Below are positions 33,548 to 38,581 of a stretch of DNA of 64,000 nt, in pieces. The notes below the pieces were generated by a model that saw only the letters and a program-made list of their open reading frames with translations, was not told the DNA's origin and did not search any database. The stretch is from Thermoproteota archaeon. Its GTDB lineage: Archaea; Korarchaeota; Korarchaeia; Korarchaeales; Korarchaeaceae. Position 1 is the first letter of the stretch. Each line of letters starts with the position of its first letter. The stretch lies in the NCBI GenBank assembly GCA_027492205.1, contig JAOZFN010000007.1:1-64000 (forward strand), read 5' to 3'. Made by a program: the position numbers and the translations under genes.

Positions 33548-34441
33548 CTATAAACTTGGGTTGCCGCCGCCACGCCGCTTCGGTCTAACCTCAACGTCGA
33601 TCCTGAACTTCCACTTCCGGGGGGAGTAGCTGCCGACCCTCCTCCACCCCAGAACCCTCGCCTTCAGGCCAATCCGACTCGCGGCCCCCTCGATAAGCGC
33701 GGCGGCCCTCTCCGGAGCGTCCTCCCCGCCCCAGTAGTAGAAGTGGATCACCCCTCCCTCGGGTCGGAGGCACCTTAGGGCCAGGTCGAGGAACATGTAC
33801 GCCCCCTTGGGGAGCGGCATGACCACCCTGTCAAACTCCCCAAACATGGAGGGACAAACCTCTCTGACGTCCCCGAGAATCGCTCGAACTTTCCCCTCCA
33901 GCCTGTTGAGCCTGATGTTCTCCTCGAAGTACCTGACGGCGTCCGGGTTTATCTCGACGCCCACCACCTCCCTGACCCTCGGCTGGGCCCTCGCTATGGC
34001 CACCGCGTAGGGGCCCACGCCCGCGAACATGACCAGCACCCGCTCGCCGGGCCTCACCATCGAGGCGACCTCCATCCTGTCGGTGGCCTCTCTTGGAGAG
34101 AAATACACCCTCCTGGGGTCCAGCCTGAGCCGGTACCCGTGCTCCTTGTGGATCACCTCTGTGTTCTCATCCCCCCAGACCAGCTCGTACTGCCTCAGCC
34201 TTTCCTCTCCCTCCCTGGGTCCTCGCTTAATCAGAACCGACTTGACGTGCCTGTGTCTCGAGGAGACTTCCCTCGCGGCCCCGGCCGGGTCCATCCCCTC
34301 GGGGACCTCGATAATCGCGACGGCCCCAGTCTCTCTAGAACCAATCAGGTCATAGGCTATTCGCTCCAAACCCCTTCTCTCTCCACGCTTCGTGCCGGCG
34401 TCGGGCGTGGAGGGCCCCCCGACAGAGTCCACCCGCCCCAC
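33548..34441 (-). CDS. trm5: tRNA (guanine-37-N1)-methyltransferase, Trm5 family
   Basis: 297 residues. The Rossmann fold reads ERVLVMFAGVGPYAVAIA with VVGVEINPDAVRYFEENIR after strand 2. The catalytic motif is the Trm5-type RVVMPLPKGAYMFLDLAL, followed by GGVIHFYYW. A preceding conserved strand ends RVYFSPREATDR. The enzyme adds m1G37 next to the anticodon, which keeps the reading frame. About 40 N-terminal residues are Gly/Arg-rich and may be overpredicted. Confidence 0.92.
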   Translation of the reverse strand: MGRVDSVGGPSTPDAGTKRGERRGLERIAYDLIGSRETGAVAIIEVPEGMDPAGAAREVSSRHRHVKSVLIKRGPREGEERLRQYELVWGDENTEVIHKEHGYRLRLDPRRVYFSPREATDRMEVASMVRPGERVLVMFAGVGPYAVAIARAQPRVREVVGVEINPDAVRYFEENIRLNRLEGKVRAILGDVREVCPSMFGEFDRVVMPLPKGAYMFLDLALRCLRPEGGVIHFYYWGGEDAPERAAALIEGAASRIGLKARVLGWRRVGSYSPRKWKFRIDVEVRPKRRGGGNPSL

Positions 34442-34452
34442 TCCCCATGGAC

Positions 34453-35220
34453 CTACCTCAGGCCGTATACCTCCATGGCGTTCGTGGTCGTTACTTCAGC
34501 GAGCTCTGCTGGCTTCATACCCTTCAGCTTGGCCAGGAACTTCGCCGACTTAACCAGGTTTGCCGGCTCGTTTCTCCCCCTGGAGTCTGGGCTCAGAACC
34601 GGAGAGTCGCTCTCTAGGACCATGTACTCAATGGGCGTAGCCTCGGCTACCCTCTGCACGTTGGCGCTCCTTGTTACGTTGGTGGCTATGCTCACATACC
34701 ACCCCCTCTCTACCGCCGTTCTCACGTCCCTCTGAGATCCACCGAAGGCGTGGAGTACAACCCTCGTGGCGCCCTCGTCCTCTAGGACCCTCAAGACCGG
34801 CCTCTGGGCCCACAGGCTGTGCACGACGATGGGCTTGTCTATCTCCTCCGCGAGCCTGATGAACCTCCTGAACACCTCCTCTTGCCTCTTCCTGACGGAC
34901 TCCTGCTTGGCTATCCTGTAGTCCATCCCCACCTCTCCCACCGCAACGATGTCCTTCTCGTTCTCCAGGATGAGCCTCTCAACGGCTTTAATCTCGGTCT
35001 CGTCGTCCACGTCCCTGGGGTCGAGGCCCAGAGAGATGTGGACGACGTTGGTTGGGAGGAAGAGCCTAAGGGCCTTCTCCGCATCCGAGCTGTCCAGCGA
35101 GGACGAGACCATTCCGATCACGCCGGCCTTGACGGCCCTGTCGATGACCTCCCACCTGTCGTCGTCGAAGGAGGGGTCCTCCAAGTGGCAGTGCGCGTCG
35201 AACAGCCTCAGCGACGGCAT
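34453..35220 (-). CDS. TatD-family metal-dependent hydrolase
   Basis: 255 residues from ATG 35220; an in-frame GTG at 35235 also exists, but a TATA-like ATATTTA at about 35245-35251 favours 35220. Metal ligands are in LFDAHCHLEDPSF (HxH), VGEVGMDYR, IVVHSLWAQ and LESDSPVLSP. TatD proteins are TIM-barrel 3'-5' DNases or D-Tyr-tRNA-like hydrolases. It is followed at 12 bases by trm5. Confidence 0.88.
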   Translation of the reverse strand: MPSLRLFDAHCHLEDPSFDDDRWEVIDRAVKAGVIGMVSSSLDSSDAEKALRLFLPTNVVHISLGLDPRDVDDETEIKAVERLILENEKDIVAVGEVGMDYRIAKQESVRKRQEEVFRRFIRLAEEIDKPIVVHSLWAQRPVLRVLEDEGATRVVLHAFGGSQRDVRTAVERGWYVSIATNVTRSANVQRVAEATPIEYMVLESDSPVLSPDSRGRNEPANLVKSAKFLAKLKGMKPAELAEVTTTNAMEVYGLR

Positions 35221-35287
35221 CTCGATTTCGCGCACGCGAGGGGTAAATATGTTGCTACCACTCCATCGTCAAGCGGACGGCTTAAAC

Positions 35288-36337
35288 TCAGCGAGGTCGG
35301 AGGCCCCGGGTCGGGAGAGGGACGACCTCCGACCCCCTACGGATCACCAGGTGCGTCACCTTAGACTCGTGGCAGTCCACGACGGCAAGTCCCGAGTCGC
35401 CTGGCCAGCCCACCAGCGACAACTTCCTCCATCCTCCGGGGGCGCCGGAGGTCCAGAGCGCAACTGGATCCTCTAACTCATCTAATGAGGCCTCTCTCAG
35501 GATGCGGGTCTTGCCGCCGTGGGCCTCGACCATGAAGGCCCCGCCCCCGGAGACGAGCCAGATTTCCCACCCGGGCGGAGTGGCTACGGCGGCGGAAATG
35601 CCGGAGGGGAATGCCTTCGACGCGTCGTGAACGAAATCCGGCAGTCTGGCCAGCCTGTGCTTCACGAGCTTCACCGCGTGGGATATCGGGGCGAGGAGGG
35701 CCCCGCTCATCCTGGGCATCTTGAGCGCCACCACCTGGCCGCCATCGCCGATCAGAACCGCCGACCTCCCAACCTCAAGCGCCAGGTGACCGTCGCTGCC
35801 GCCCGTCCAGGGGAGGCCGAGCTCGGCGGCCAGCCTCTGAGCTCGCCTATTAGACTCCATCGGGGATCTAGAGTTGGACGCCTCCAGGGCGTGTATCCTG
35901 TGGGATATCTCCCTAACCGTGGCCGCGCTCATGGCGTTCTTCCTAGTCCAGTCCCCCGGGTGCGGGACGGTGATGAGACCTCCGTGCTCCACGATCTCGT
36001 CGGCGGTTTCGAGGGGATCCATGTTCTGCCTCACCCAGTCCGAGAGGTTGAGCCCGATGATTTCCCCCCTCGAAGTCTTGATCTCCTCCCCGGGGATCAC
36101 CGCTAGTCCGAACCTCTCGGCAGCCCTCCGCACGTCTCCGTAGCCAAGGGTCTCTCCGTGGTCGGTCACGGCCAGGCCCGCGAGGCCCCTCCTCTTGGCC
36201 CACTTCACGATGGACGCGGGTCTTGAGGGAGAGTCCCTCGACCACCTCGTGTGCACGTGGAGGTCGTACCACCCAGGGGGGACCTTGAGGCCCAGCCTCA
36301 TCGACCCGGGCGCCTCGATCAAGGGCAGGGTTACCAC
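35288..36337 (-). CDS. PHP-domain metal-dependent hydrolase
   Basis: 349 residues. PHP motif I is WYDLHVHTRWSRDS (His27, His29), motif II LAVTDHGETLGYG, motif III GEEIKTSRGEIIGL with HPGDW later, and motif IV TGGSDGHLALEVG. The first 215 residues make the PHP barrel; the C-terminal 130 are an unknown strand-rich appendage. PHP enzymes hydrolyse phosphate esters such as histidinol phosphate, nucleoside phosphates or DNA ends. It overlaps the LysW-like gene by seven bases, so a joint role is worth considering. Confidence 0.85.
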   Translation of the reverse strand: MVTLPLIEAPGSMRLGLKVPPGWYDLHVHTRWSRDSPSRPASIVKWAKRRGLAGLAVTDHGETLGYGDVRRAAERFGLAVIPGEEIKTSRGEIIGLNLSDWVRQNMDPLETADEIVEHGGLITVPHPGDWTRKNAMSAATVREISHRIHALEASNSRSPMESNRRAQRLAAELGLPWTGGSDGHLALEVGRSAVLIGDGGQVVALKMPRMSGALLAPISHAVKLVKHRLARLPDFVHDASKAFPSGISAAVATPPGWEIWLVSGGGAFMVEAHGGKTRILREASLDELEDPVALWTSGAPGGWRKLSLVGWPGDSGLAVVDCHESKVTHLVIRRGSEVVPLPTRGLRPR

Positions 36338-36645
36338 CCCACTCCGACCCGGTCAGAAGCCCCCAACCCTTCATCCAGCTCCTCGAGGTCCTCCAGGTCG
36401 ACATCCTCCAGCTCGAGGTCATCCTCAAGCTCCAGTCCCCCTACCTCGGCCTCAAGTTCCGGGAGCTCAAGCTCTTCCTCTTCAAACTCGAGTTCCTCCT
36501 CTCGGAGTTCAATCAGCCGAACAGAGCCCCCTTCAATAACGACAAAGAGCCGCGCTCCGCAGTCAGGGCACTCCACCTCGCCCTGAAAGTCGGGGGACCC
36601 AACCGGGATCCCGGCCCCGCAGATGGGACACTCGACCTCACGCAT
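36331..36645 (-). CDS. LysW-like zinc-ribbon protein with a long acidic tail
   Basis: 104 residues. The N-terminal 43 look like the amino-group carrier LysW: zinc ligands Cys6-x2-Cys9 and Cys26-x2-Cys29, followed by ARLFVVIEGGSVRLIEL. LysW is about 54 residues and ends in EDWGE, whose last Glu carries the substrate. Here about 50 residues of Glu, Asp and Leu follow instead (ELEFEEEELELPELE; LELEDDLELEDVDLEDLEEL, part), and the protein ends GVGW. No lysX, lysZ or argininosuccinate genes are nearby. It could be a carrier for another pathway, an RNA-polymerase-type zinc ribbon or an acidic chaperone-like protein. Confidence 0.75.
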   Translation of the reverse strand: MREVECPICGAGIPVGSPDFQGEVECPDCGARLFVVIEGGSVRLIELREEELEFEEEELELPELEAEVGGLELEDDLELEDVDLEDLEELDEGLGASDRVGVGW

Positions 36646-36676
36646 TTCCGGACCCGCGTCCGATGGTGGTATAAAA

Positions 36677-37618
36677 TTAACCCCCCGACTCGCCGCCGAC
36701 CAGCCTGCTCGGGACCCTGCCCCCCAGCTTCTCTACCAGCCTGCAGAACGAGCACACCTCCGTTCTGCTCGGGTAGCCGCACCTTGAGCACTCTCTGAAT
36801 CCCTCCATCTTCTCCCCCAGCAGGCCAGCCATTCTCGCCAGCTCCCTCATCGAGTCGACGAAGTTCACGATGCTGGTGGGCCAGAGCGAGCGGAGATCGT
36901 TGAGGAGGGGCTTTACGAGAGCCTGCTTGTCCTGGCCCTCGTGTGGGCACTTAGTGGAGCACCTCGGGGCTCCGGTGATCCTCACGTACGTCTCGGCGTC
37001 GGCGTCGCTGAGCCAGAAGAGGGGCCTCACCCTCCCGACCAGCTTGAGCTCGGGGATGGGCGGCGTGACCGAGTCGAGGGATCGAAGGTAGGCAAGGTTG
37101 TGGGTGATCATGTTGTTGAGGGCGAAGTAGGCCATGTCGTCCAGGTTGTGTCCCGTCGCGACGTAGTCGTAGCCCGCCTCGTGGGCCACCCTGTTAAGGA
37201 CGTACCTCGTAACCGTCCCGCAGACCACGCAGGCGAATGAGGGGTCGTCCGGCACCCTGATGGCGAGGTCGTCCCTCAGCGAGACGAGGTGCCTGCTGGC
37301 CCCGACTTCCGAGACCGCCCTCTCGAACACCTCGACGCACGCCTCGTTGCCCGGCACGCCCACATCTATCATTAGGGCCCCTATCTCCAGGGAGAACTCG
37401 TCGGCCATCTCCGCAAGCGCGTAGAGGGCTGCCACAGAGTCCTTCCCGCCGGAGACACCGACGAGCACCCTCTTGCCCTTGCCCACCCTCCTGAGGACCC
37501 TCCTCACCCTCTTCCTGAAGTACCTCAGGAAGTGCTCGGTGCAGACCCTACCGCCGAGGTTCGGGACGAAGTGCTCCCCGGGTCTCTCGCAGTACAAGCA
37601 GCGCTCGGTCGCCATCAT
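36677..37618 (-). CDS. ttuA: TtuA/Ctu1-type tRNA 2-thiolation enzyme
   Basis: 313 residues. The N-terminal zinc site has Cys7-x2-Cys10 and Cys26 with His29. The ATP-pyrophosphatase loop is LVGVSGGKDSVAALYAL. The catalytic cysteines are in ACVVCGTVTRY and RCSTKCPHEGQ. A C-terminal zinc site reads CSRCGYPSRTEVCSFC. The enzyme activates a tRNA uridine with ATP and replaces its oxygen by sulfur from a ubiquitin-like carrier. Targets are U54 in thermophiles or U34. It fits the tRNA-modification theme of this stretch with trm5. Confidence 0.93.
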   Translation of the reverse strand: MMATERCLYCERPGEHFVPNLGGRVCTEHFLRYFRKRVRRVLRRVGKGKRVLVGVSGGKDSVAALYALAEMADEFSLEIGALMIDVGVPGNEACVEVFERAVSEVGASRHLVSLRDDLAIRVPDDPSFACVVCGTVTRYVLNRVAHEAGYDYVATGHNLDDMAYFALNNMITHNLAYLRSLDSVTPPIPELKLVGRVRPLFWLSDADAETYVRITGAPRCSTKCPHEGQDKQALVKPLLNDLRSLWPTSIVNFVDSMRELARMAGLLGEKMEGFRECSRCGYPSRTEVCSFCRLVEKLGGRVPSRLVGGESGG

Positions 37619-37666: not shown

Positions 37667-38581
37667 CTAAGCCAGCCTCAGGAGCTTTGCGATCAGCGTC
37701 TTTAGGGCCCCTACGATAATGACCCGGGCCACCTTCCCGCTGGGGGCTATCCAATCCTCGGAACTGGCATCTTCGTCCATCTCAACGTTTAGCCCCTTGA
37801 ACAGCACGACGGGTATGCCCTCGTCGGCCTGCCCCATGAGCAGGGCCGCCGCGGCCGCGAGCTCGTCGGCCACGGAGTCGTCTCCCCCGAACTTTGGCCT
37901 TCCAAAGTAGTCCCTGGCCCCAAACCTCCTGCGGATCGGAAAGACGTTGGCGACCCCCACCGCCACGTCGATGGAGCCGATCTTCATGGGCTGGAACTCC
38001 GTGTCGGAGATCACGATCCCCACCCTGGCGCCCGTGAGTTCCCTTATGCGGTCGGCTATCTCTCGGGCCTCCTCATCCGGATCTGGCGGCAGCAGGCAGA
38101 CGTGGCCCTCGGGGCAGTTGGAGTAGTCCATCCCAGCGTCGATGAGGGTCAGCCCCCTGGCTCTCATGAGCAGGACGTCCCCGGCAGACTCCACCATCTT
38201 CCTGGCTTCTTCGGGGTCAACCGCGAACCTCTCCGGGAAGCCCGTCCCCCTGGCGGCCTTGGAGAAGGGCATGATGAACGCGAGGCTTCCCCTCTCCCTG
38301 ATCAGCTCGACCTCCCAGGGCTCTCGGCCTGTCAGCCACGCCAACAGCTTGCTCCTGATACTCGGCTTGACCTCCCCCGGCATCGCGACGTATCCCTTGG
38401 CGCGAGAGATCACCTTGCTCGCCACCACGAGCACATCTCCGTCCTCGAGTCTCTCTCCAACCTCACCTGCGGCCTGGACGATGAGCTCGGCCAGGTCATC
38501 TCCCTGCAAAACCCGAGGGAGTCTGAGCCCGATCATCCTGACATCCGCGGGGTGGGGATCCTCCTTGGAGGGAGATCTCAT
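37667..38581 (-). CDS. cofE: Coenzyme F420-0:L-glutamate ligase, copy 1
   Basis: 304 residues of the CofE/FbiB-N family, which add gamma-linked glutamates to F420-0 using GTP. Signatures are VLVVASKVISRAKGYVAM, VDPEEARKMVE, the metal-site string LIDAGMDYSNCPEGHVCLLP, RVGIVISDTEF and FGRPKFGGDDSVADELAAAA. A second copy lies at 55677. Each copy is divergent from a related membrane protein gene. It implies F420-dependent redox enzymes in this cell, although none is in the window. Confidence 0.92.
   Translation of the reverse strand: MRSPSKEDPHPADVRMIGLRLPRVLQGDDLAELIVQAAGEVGERLEDGDVLVVASKVISRAKGYVAMPGEVKPSIRSKLLAWLTGREPWEVELIRERGSLAFIMPFSKAARGTGFPERFAVDPEEARKMVESAGDVLLMRARGLTLIDAGMDYSNCPEGHVCLLPPDPDEEAREIADRIRELTGARVGIVISDTEFQPMKIGSIDVAVGVANVFPIRRRFGARDYFGRPKFGGDDSVADELAAAAALLMGQADEGIPVVLFKGLNVEMDEDASSEDWIAPSGKVARVIIVGALKTLIAKLLRLA

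Follow-up and report, generated by a model that had tools for sequence, protein, structure and literature searches.

The window, a 64,000-nucleotide stretch of korarchaeal DNA, encodes a genuine 104-residue protein whose fold is known but appears here in a novel form, a Cys4 zinc ribbon of the LysW lineage in which the C-terminal EDWGE end is lost and a long acidic tail stands in its place. The enzymes of the LysW carrier system were not found in the genome, acidic and often aromatic-ended tails recur throughout a family of related ribbons, and no stable gene partner accompanies them. The end of the protein and its gene context had been misread in the initial annotation. Our leading but tentative reading makes it a paralogue of the LysW ribbon with no carrier role, which may act as an adaptor or competitive inhibitor that docks via its acidic and hydrophobic tail. 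The gene and its parts are the following:

36331–36645, minus strand: acid-tailed LysW-type zinc ribbon protein, 104 amino acids plus stop (open reading frame, PF21344, same-genus ortholog)
36502–36645, minus strand: zinc ribbon, residues 1–48, with Cys6, Cys9, Cys26 and Cys29 (invariant Cys columns in alignment A1, AF2, Foldseek)
36364–36513, minus strand: acidic tail rich in Glu, Asp and Leu, residues 45–94, net 26 acidic (composition, AF2, sister-genome differences)
36360–36364, minus strand: run of 5 G, of which the sister genome has 6 (DNA alignment with the sister locus L033)
36331–36359, minus strand: shifted extension to GVGW, which overlaps the PHP start by 7 nt (DNA alignment with L033, ORF coordinates)

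Judged by Pfam score, ortholog, codon pattern and tail charge, ORF 36645–36331 is not a chance reading frame. It is 95% identical to its same-genus ortholog, and comparison with the sister genome gave a pN/pS of 0.24 in a small sample (94 codons; 5 synonymous and 4 non-synonymous differences). Tail codons 47–94 are 94% identical with a pN/pS of 0.167 (5 synonymous, 3 non-synonymous), and the 46 codons of the ribbon differ by a single amino-acid change. The last 40 residues hold 16 net acidic residues. The next highest value in the rest of the window is 8 (63 greedy ORF calls of at least 100 amino acids), and none of 451 conserved neighbour ORFs from Korarchaeia loci has 15 or more (maximum 10; L054, L058, L066, L071, and L076 were left out of this set as outside the family). 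The ORF translation bears out the initial annotation in that the Cys6/9/26/29 zinc ribbon is kept and the EDWGE end is absent, and its composition agrees with the acidic tail of about 50 residues described there.

Pfam cut-off, PDB profile search, and comparison of the predicted structure all place the ribbon in the LysW lineage, as had been supposed. PF21344, the Pfam LysW ribbon, matches residues 4–38 with 29.5 bits (cut-off 27), and both NCBIfam LysW models score the protein below their cut-offs (33.9 vs. 75 and 24.7 vs. 53.2 bits). A PDB search with profile A1 put three LysW chains on top (E-values of 1.3e-9, 2.3e-7, and 5.7e-6; next match 0.0023 and weaker), a profile made from 16 acid-tailed relatives that were selected for their tails and with tail columns included, so that acidic tails push up its bit scores. 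The four Cys columns are invariant in the A1 alignment. AF2 predicts a five-stranded ribbon with block mean pLDDT of 80–91 over residues 1–50 (whole model: mean pLDDT 69.8, pTM 0.41), for which Foldseek returned LysW chains at ranks 1–6 (E-values of 0.0055–0.036; next match 0.85). The window protein thus resembles LysW/ArgW (PF21344, TIGR01206, NF041070; PDB 3wwl, 3vpb, 5k2m) in its same-lineage Cys4 ribbon, predicted fold, and overall acidity, but differs in having neither a C-terminal EDWGE nor a terminal Glu, in its tail of about 50 residues, in falling under both NCBIfam cut-offs, and in coming from a genome in which LysX, LysY, and LysZ were not found. The initial annotation had named a variable tail on a generic zinc ribbon as the finding that would speak against its proposal; the tail sequence is indeed variable, yet the LysW kinship of the ribbon stands. 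A passage of PMC7544198 traces the zinc motifs of polymerases to 'RpoP/LysW-like' proteins, and RpoP is among the next best PDB profile matches (E-value of 0.0079), both in line with an RNA polymerase regulator akin to the Rpo12/RpoP zinc ribbon. Such a role is decidedly improbable, because the E-value of LysW is over six orders of magnitude better than that of RpoP and the top Foldseek ranks hold LysW only; the RpoP relation is the weaker one in both searches. The RpoP profile NF001607 gave 17.7 bits with the window protein (cut-off 89).

According to passages of PMC10433800, the terminal Glu of EDWGE is the substrate attachment site in LysW/ArgW, the exchange E54A of this terminal Glu in haloarchaeal ArgW abolished arginine synthesis, and ArgX/LysX recognise the EDWGE motif. 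Genome searches of the window's assembly G000 (1.94 Mb, 96.4% complete) and of G001 gave no TIGR00768 match to a RimK-family ATP-grasp ligase (LysX/ArgX) and no TIGR01850 match to an ArgC-type LysY, and for the LysZ kinase the best TIGR00761 (ArgB-family) matches reached about 30 bits vs. a cut-off of 151.3. We consider LysX likely, though not certainly, absent from these two genomes, at 96% completeness. The 99% complete genome G003 also has acid-tailed ribbons, and searches there gave no RimK-family match, no ArgB/LysZ match over the cut-off, and a single weak ArgC-type match (49 vs. 233.6 bits); three near-complete genomes retain acid-tailed ribbons without LysX, LysY, or LysZ. Relatives with a canonical EDWGE-ended LysW carry it inside a LysX-ArgC-LysZ-LysJ-LysK gene run. 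As an observation on the canonical type, the EDWGE LysW operons of Korarchaeia (L045, L048, L050, L053, L056) contain two RimK-family ligases each, one over and one under the LysX cut-off (331.5 and 257.7 vs. 275.6 in L045), as expected for a LysX and ArgX pair.

With EDWGE missing and LysX, LysY, and LysZ not found, the window protein is, by its sequence and gene complement, not a LysW carrier. This agrees with the initial annotation that it is no ordinary LysW, and goes against the new type of carrier proposed there, given that the genome yielded no RimK-family ATP-grasp ligase and that no terminal Glu is conserved. A carrier with a new loading site was rejected on account of the missing ligase, kinase, and end motif. 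It is scarcely credible that the protein is still an amino-group carrier, loaded by an unrelated ligase, perhaps the adjacent CofE, either on its tail or at a Glu inside the chain. The ribbon has LysW kinship, the gene of this glutamate ligase lies two genes upstream, and natural-product clusters hold LysW-like carriers outside primary metabolism (an excerpt of PMC8346489), but the EDWGE needed for ArgX/LysX recognition (PMC10433800, in part) is absent here, a RimK-family ligase was not found in G000 or G001, the ribbon adjoins a TtuA-like gene in only two of 17 genomes, and a window-type cofE neighbour occurs in none of the other acid-tailed loci examined.

A scan of 394 genomes found acid-tailed ribbons of at least 69 bits in 20 of 24 genomes from the window's Korarchaeia family, and none of that score in G004, G010, G021, and G022, three of which are less than 80% complete. 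Homologues that keep a long acidic tail, for which the initial annotation had suggested a search, are present across the family. The window genome has a second acid-tailed paralogue (G000:C15:19163-19411, an 86-codon frame with a Trp-bearing tail), and the named relatives that matched the family paralogue comprise Methanodesulfokora and Thermoproteota MAGs, Candidatus Korarchaeia in NCBI taxonomy. Tails were measured at 68 loci (67 plus the window), of which L076 (no match) and L067 (a LysW with the EDWGE end that lacks the fourth Cys of the motif) were dropped. Among the 66 measured, the 18 relatives with EDWGE-type ends have short tails (median 7 residues, 3 net acidic), and the other 48 have long ones (median 30 residues, 19 net acidic). 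Ends of the acid-tailed relatives include EEF, EEY, EEW, and others. The last residue is F, W, or Y in nine of 13 Korarchaeia clusters (80% identity) vs. 31 of the 451 conserved neighbour ORFs, an enrichment that is a tendency rather than a probability and no independent test, since the clusters share ancestry; the other four clusters have no aromatic last residue. In alignment A2, the tail residues W57 and W82 are invariant and W64 is conserved to at least 90%. The window tail is without these Trp residues of its relatives (two aromatic residues vs. typically four to six), and its hydrophobic residues are Leu, where most relatives have Trp/Phe.

The combination of zinc ligands with dozens of carboxylates, and a charge that is kept while the tail sequence varies, would suit a tail that serves solubility, metal binding, or zinc storage and has no specific partner. 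We regard this as unlikely, because neither the aromatic last residue of the nine clusters nor the spaced Trp residues of A2 would be needed for solubility or metal binding.

A tree of ribbon cores (ribbon plus up to 18 residues; 63 cores collapsed to 56, with L170, L171, and L172 left out) grouped 22 acid-tailed Korarchaeia tips, the window protein among them, in a single clade (bootstrap 96) separate from a Korarchaeia EDWGE clade (bootstrap 99, 13 tips), and placed the window pair as sister to the widespread paralogue (95) on a long branch. The acid-tailed Korarchaeia ribbons L078 and L167 fall outside the main clade, beside an EDWGE LysW from a different lineage (91), so the acidic tail has originated or persisted on more than one occasion. 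These two represent a third Korarchaeia acid-tailed ribbon, which ends in GDIEES and adjoins a methylene-tetrahydromethanopterin-dehydrogenase-like gene (Pfam scan on L167). No account of acid-tailed LysW-type ribbons was found in the literature searched, which included few subscription journals.

At the end of the tail, window and sister DNA are nearly identical apart from the run of 5 G in place of 6 G. The sister frame stops after GLGGF and does not overlap the PHP gene, and the window frame runs on for nine more codons to the last residues VGVGW. The GVGW end and the 7-nt overlap, both pointed out in the initial annotation, arise because the window has 5 G where its sister has 6, and hang on this single base at 36360–36364, a difference that may be genuine or may stem from faulty sequencing or assembly of either genome. 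We therefore dropped GVGW as a functional end. The last residue is aromatic in either version, W in the window and F in the sister, although in different frames.

The neighbourhood of the gene comprises:

36670–36676, minus strand: TATA-box-like TTTTATA, –31 to –25 from the ATG (read from sequence, identical in the sister genome)
36677–37618, minus strand: TtuA/Ncs6-family tRNA thiolation enzyme (PF01171; NF049949 with 158 bits, cut-off 450)
37667–38581, minus strand: CofE-type F420-0:glutamate ligase (PF01996; TIGR01916 with 201.6 bits, cut-off 180.65)
35288–36337, minus strand: PHP-domain hydrolase (PF02811, PF13263)
34453–35235, minus strand: TatD-type nuclease (PF01026), which follows the TtuA-like gene in other Korarchaeia
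33548–34441, minus strand: Trm5/Taw2-type tRNA methyltransferase family protein (PF02475), which follows TatD in other Korarchaeia

Of the neighbours that the initial annotation had named, CofE is upheld by its score and TtuA only at the level of the family, its 158 bits being under the equivalog cut-off of 450. The TtuA-like gene is present in 17 of the 24 family genomes, directly followed by TatD in 14 of the 17 and then by Trm5 in 13 of these 14, namely in all loci that reach that far. G004, in which no search found a ribbon, has the order TtuA-like, PHP, TatD, Trm5. The ribbon lies between the TtuA-like and PHP genes in two of the 17 genomes only, both from the window's genus, and because 15 of the 17 TtuA-like loci are without it, it looks inserted into an older tRNA-modification run. 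Depending on the genus, the family paralogue is found next to 2-oxoacid:ferredoxin oxidoreductase, DsbB-like, UppS-like, or Nth-like genes, with no constant co-directional partner gene across genera. The constant association with PHP, ttuA, or cofE on which the initial annotation would have relied is thus not seen, and the TtuA/CofE/PHP context of the ribbon looks incidental. A functional link to TtuA, PHP, or CofE was rejected since 15 of 17 genomes have the run but no ribbon within it, and guilt by association was dropped for the family-wide paralogue because its neighbours change by genus. Lying immediately past the end of the TtuA-like coding sequence, the TTTTATA motif suggests a putative promoter of the ribbon gene's own and would fit a leaderless transcript.

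The long branch, the presence at this place in only two genomes of one genus, the one-base difference at the end, and the lost tail Trp residues could also be read as signs of decay: the window copy would then be a remnant duplicate of the family paralogue that has no function of its own, its Glu/Leu-rich tail drifting and its end frameshifted. All four Cys are retained, however, as is the TATA-like box in both genomes, and the sister comparison (tail pN/pS of 0.167 at 94% identity, one change in 46 ribbon codons) likewise speaks against decay, which we would not expect to be the explanation. The window copy would rather be a fast-evolving, genus-confined duplicate that entered an existing tRNA-modification run, probably with its own promoter.

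Acid-tailed ribbons also occur in other archaea (20 further loci read, two of them from the window's Korarchaeia family). Those of f12 (L153–L158) form a separate clade (bootstrap 97) of 80–90 residues with 'LDTNE' and Glu/Tyr-rich ends, and those of small-genome archaea (e.g., G047, G266, G300, G316, G068) another (bootstrap 93). Both resemble the window protein in joining a short ribbon to an acidic tail, in which Tyr/Phe are frequent, but belong to clades apart from it and are unnamed in the libraries used. In the loci L160, L161, L162, L163, and L066 (G266, G316, G068, G300, and G047, respectively), the gene just upstream of the ribbon encodes a small membrane protein with several passes and a Yip1-like look, although Pfam at 1e-4 gave no match for the one such protein scanned. 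Genes nearby at these loci include tRNA synthetases of the Tyr/Trp type and, at some of them, one for Cys. As no Yip1-like gene adjoins the window gene, this neighbour is a lead for the small-genome lineages only. One f12 locus also encodes an RtcB tRNA-splicing ligase with an intein that bears a LAGLIDADG domain (L153:2011-4908, minus strand).

Of the two roles proposed in the initial annotation, the acidic adaptor is our best guess, with the carrier ruled against and a partner gene not found from the context. In the adaptor reading, the small folded ribbon would serve as a platform on which the EDWGE loading end has been replaced by a disordered, strongly acidic tail with hydrophobic residues and usually an aromatic last residue. 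AF2 models the tail at low confidence, with pLDDT block means of 50–57 and neither helix nor strand from residue 51, in keeping with predicted disorder. The tail would dock where a partner exposes a basic, hydrophobic surface, the partner possibly being a nucleic-acid-binding, ribosomal, or polymerase-type protein, and the outcome would be an adaptor or a competitive inhibitor of nucleic acid binding. The C-terminal tip of SSB, the tail of phage T7 gp2.5, and the EEY/EEF end of tubulin are acidic, disordered tails that dock on partners and have an aromatic residue in last position or close to it; the ribbon family's tails appear similar in style, by analogy, on a different folded domain. Several points weigh against an adaptor: no partner was found and the gene neighbours differ between genera, the window copy may be relaxed given its Trp-less tail and one-base end change, four of the 13 clusters, which share ancestry, have no aromatic end, and simple-sequence drift can also yield Glu-rich tails. 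In a bolder version, which we hold to be quite unlikely, Korarchaeia and, independently, other archaea would have made the LysW ribbon into docking adaptors with an EEF/EEY/EEW code for basic sites on core machinery, like the tails of SSB or tubulin, and the window gene would be a genus-specific, Leu-based offshoot.

Pfam-based annotation would name such proteins 'LysW' and so imply carrier-type lysine/arginine synthesis, which these genomes appear not to encode. The family of acid-tailed ribbons is of more interest than the window copy. A clade that most genomes of a single korarchaeal family retain, always with the same style of tail, points to an uncharacterised adaptor, and a tail code, should it prove real, would reveal a route from a metabolic carrier fold to an interaction module.
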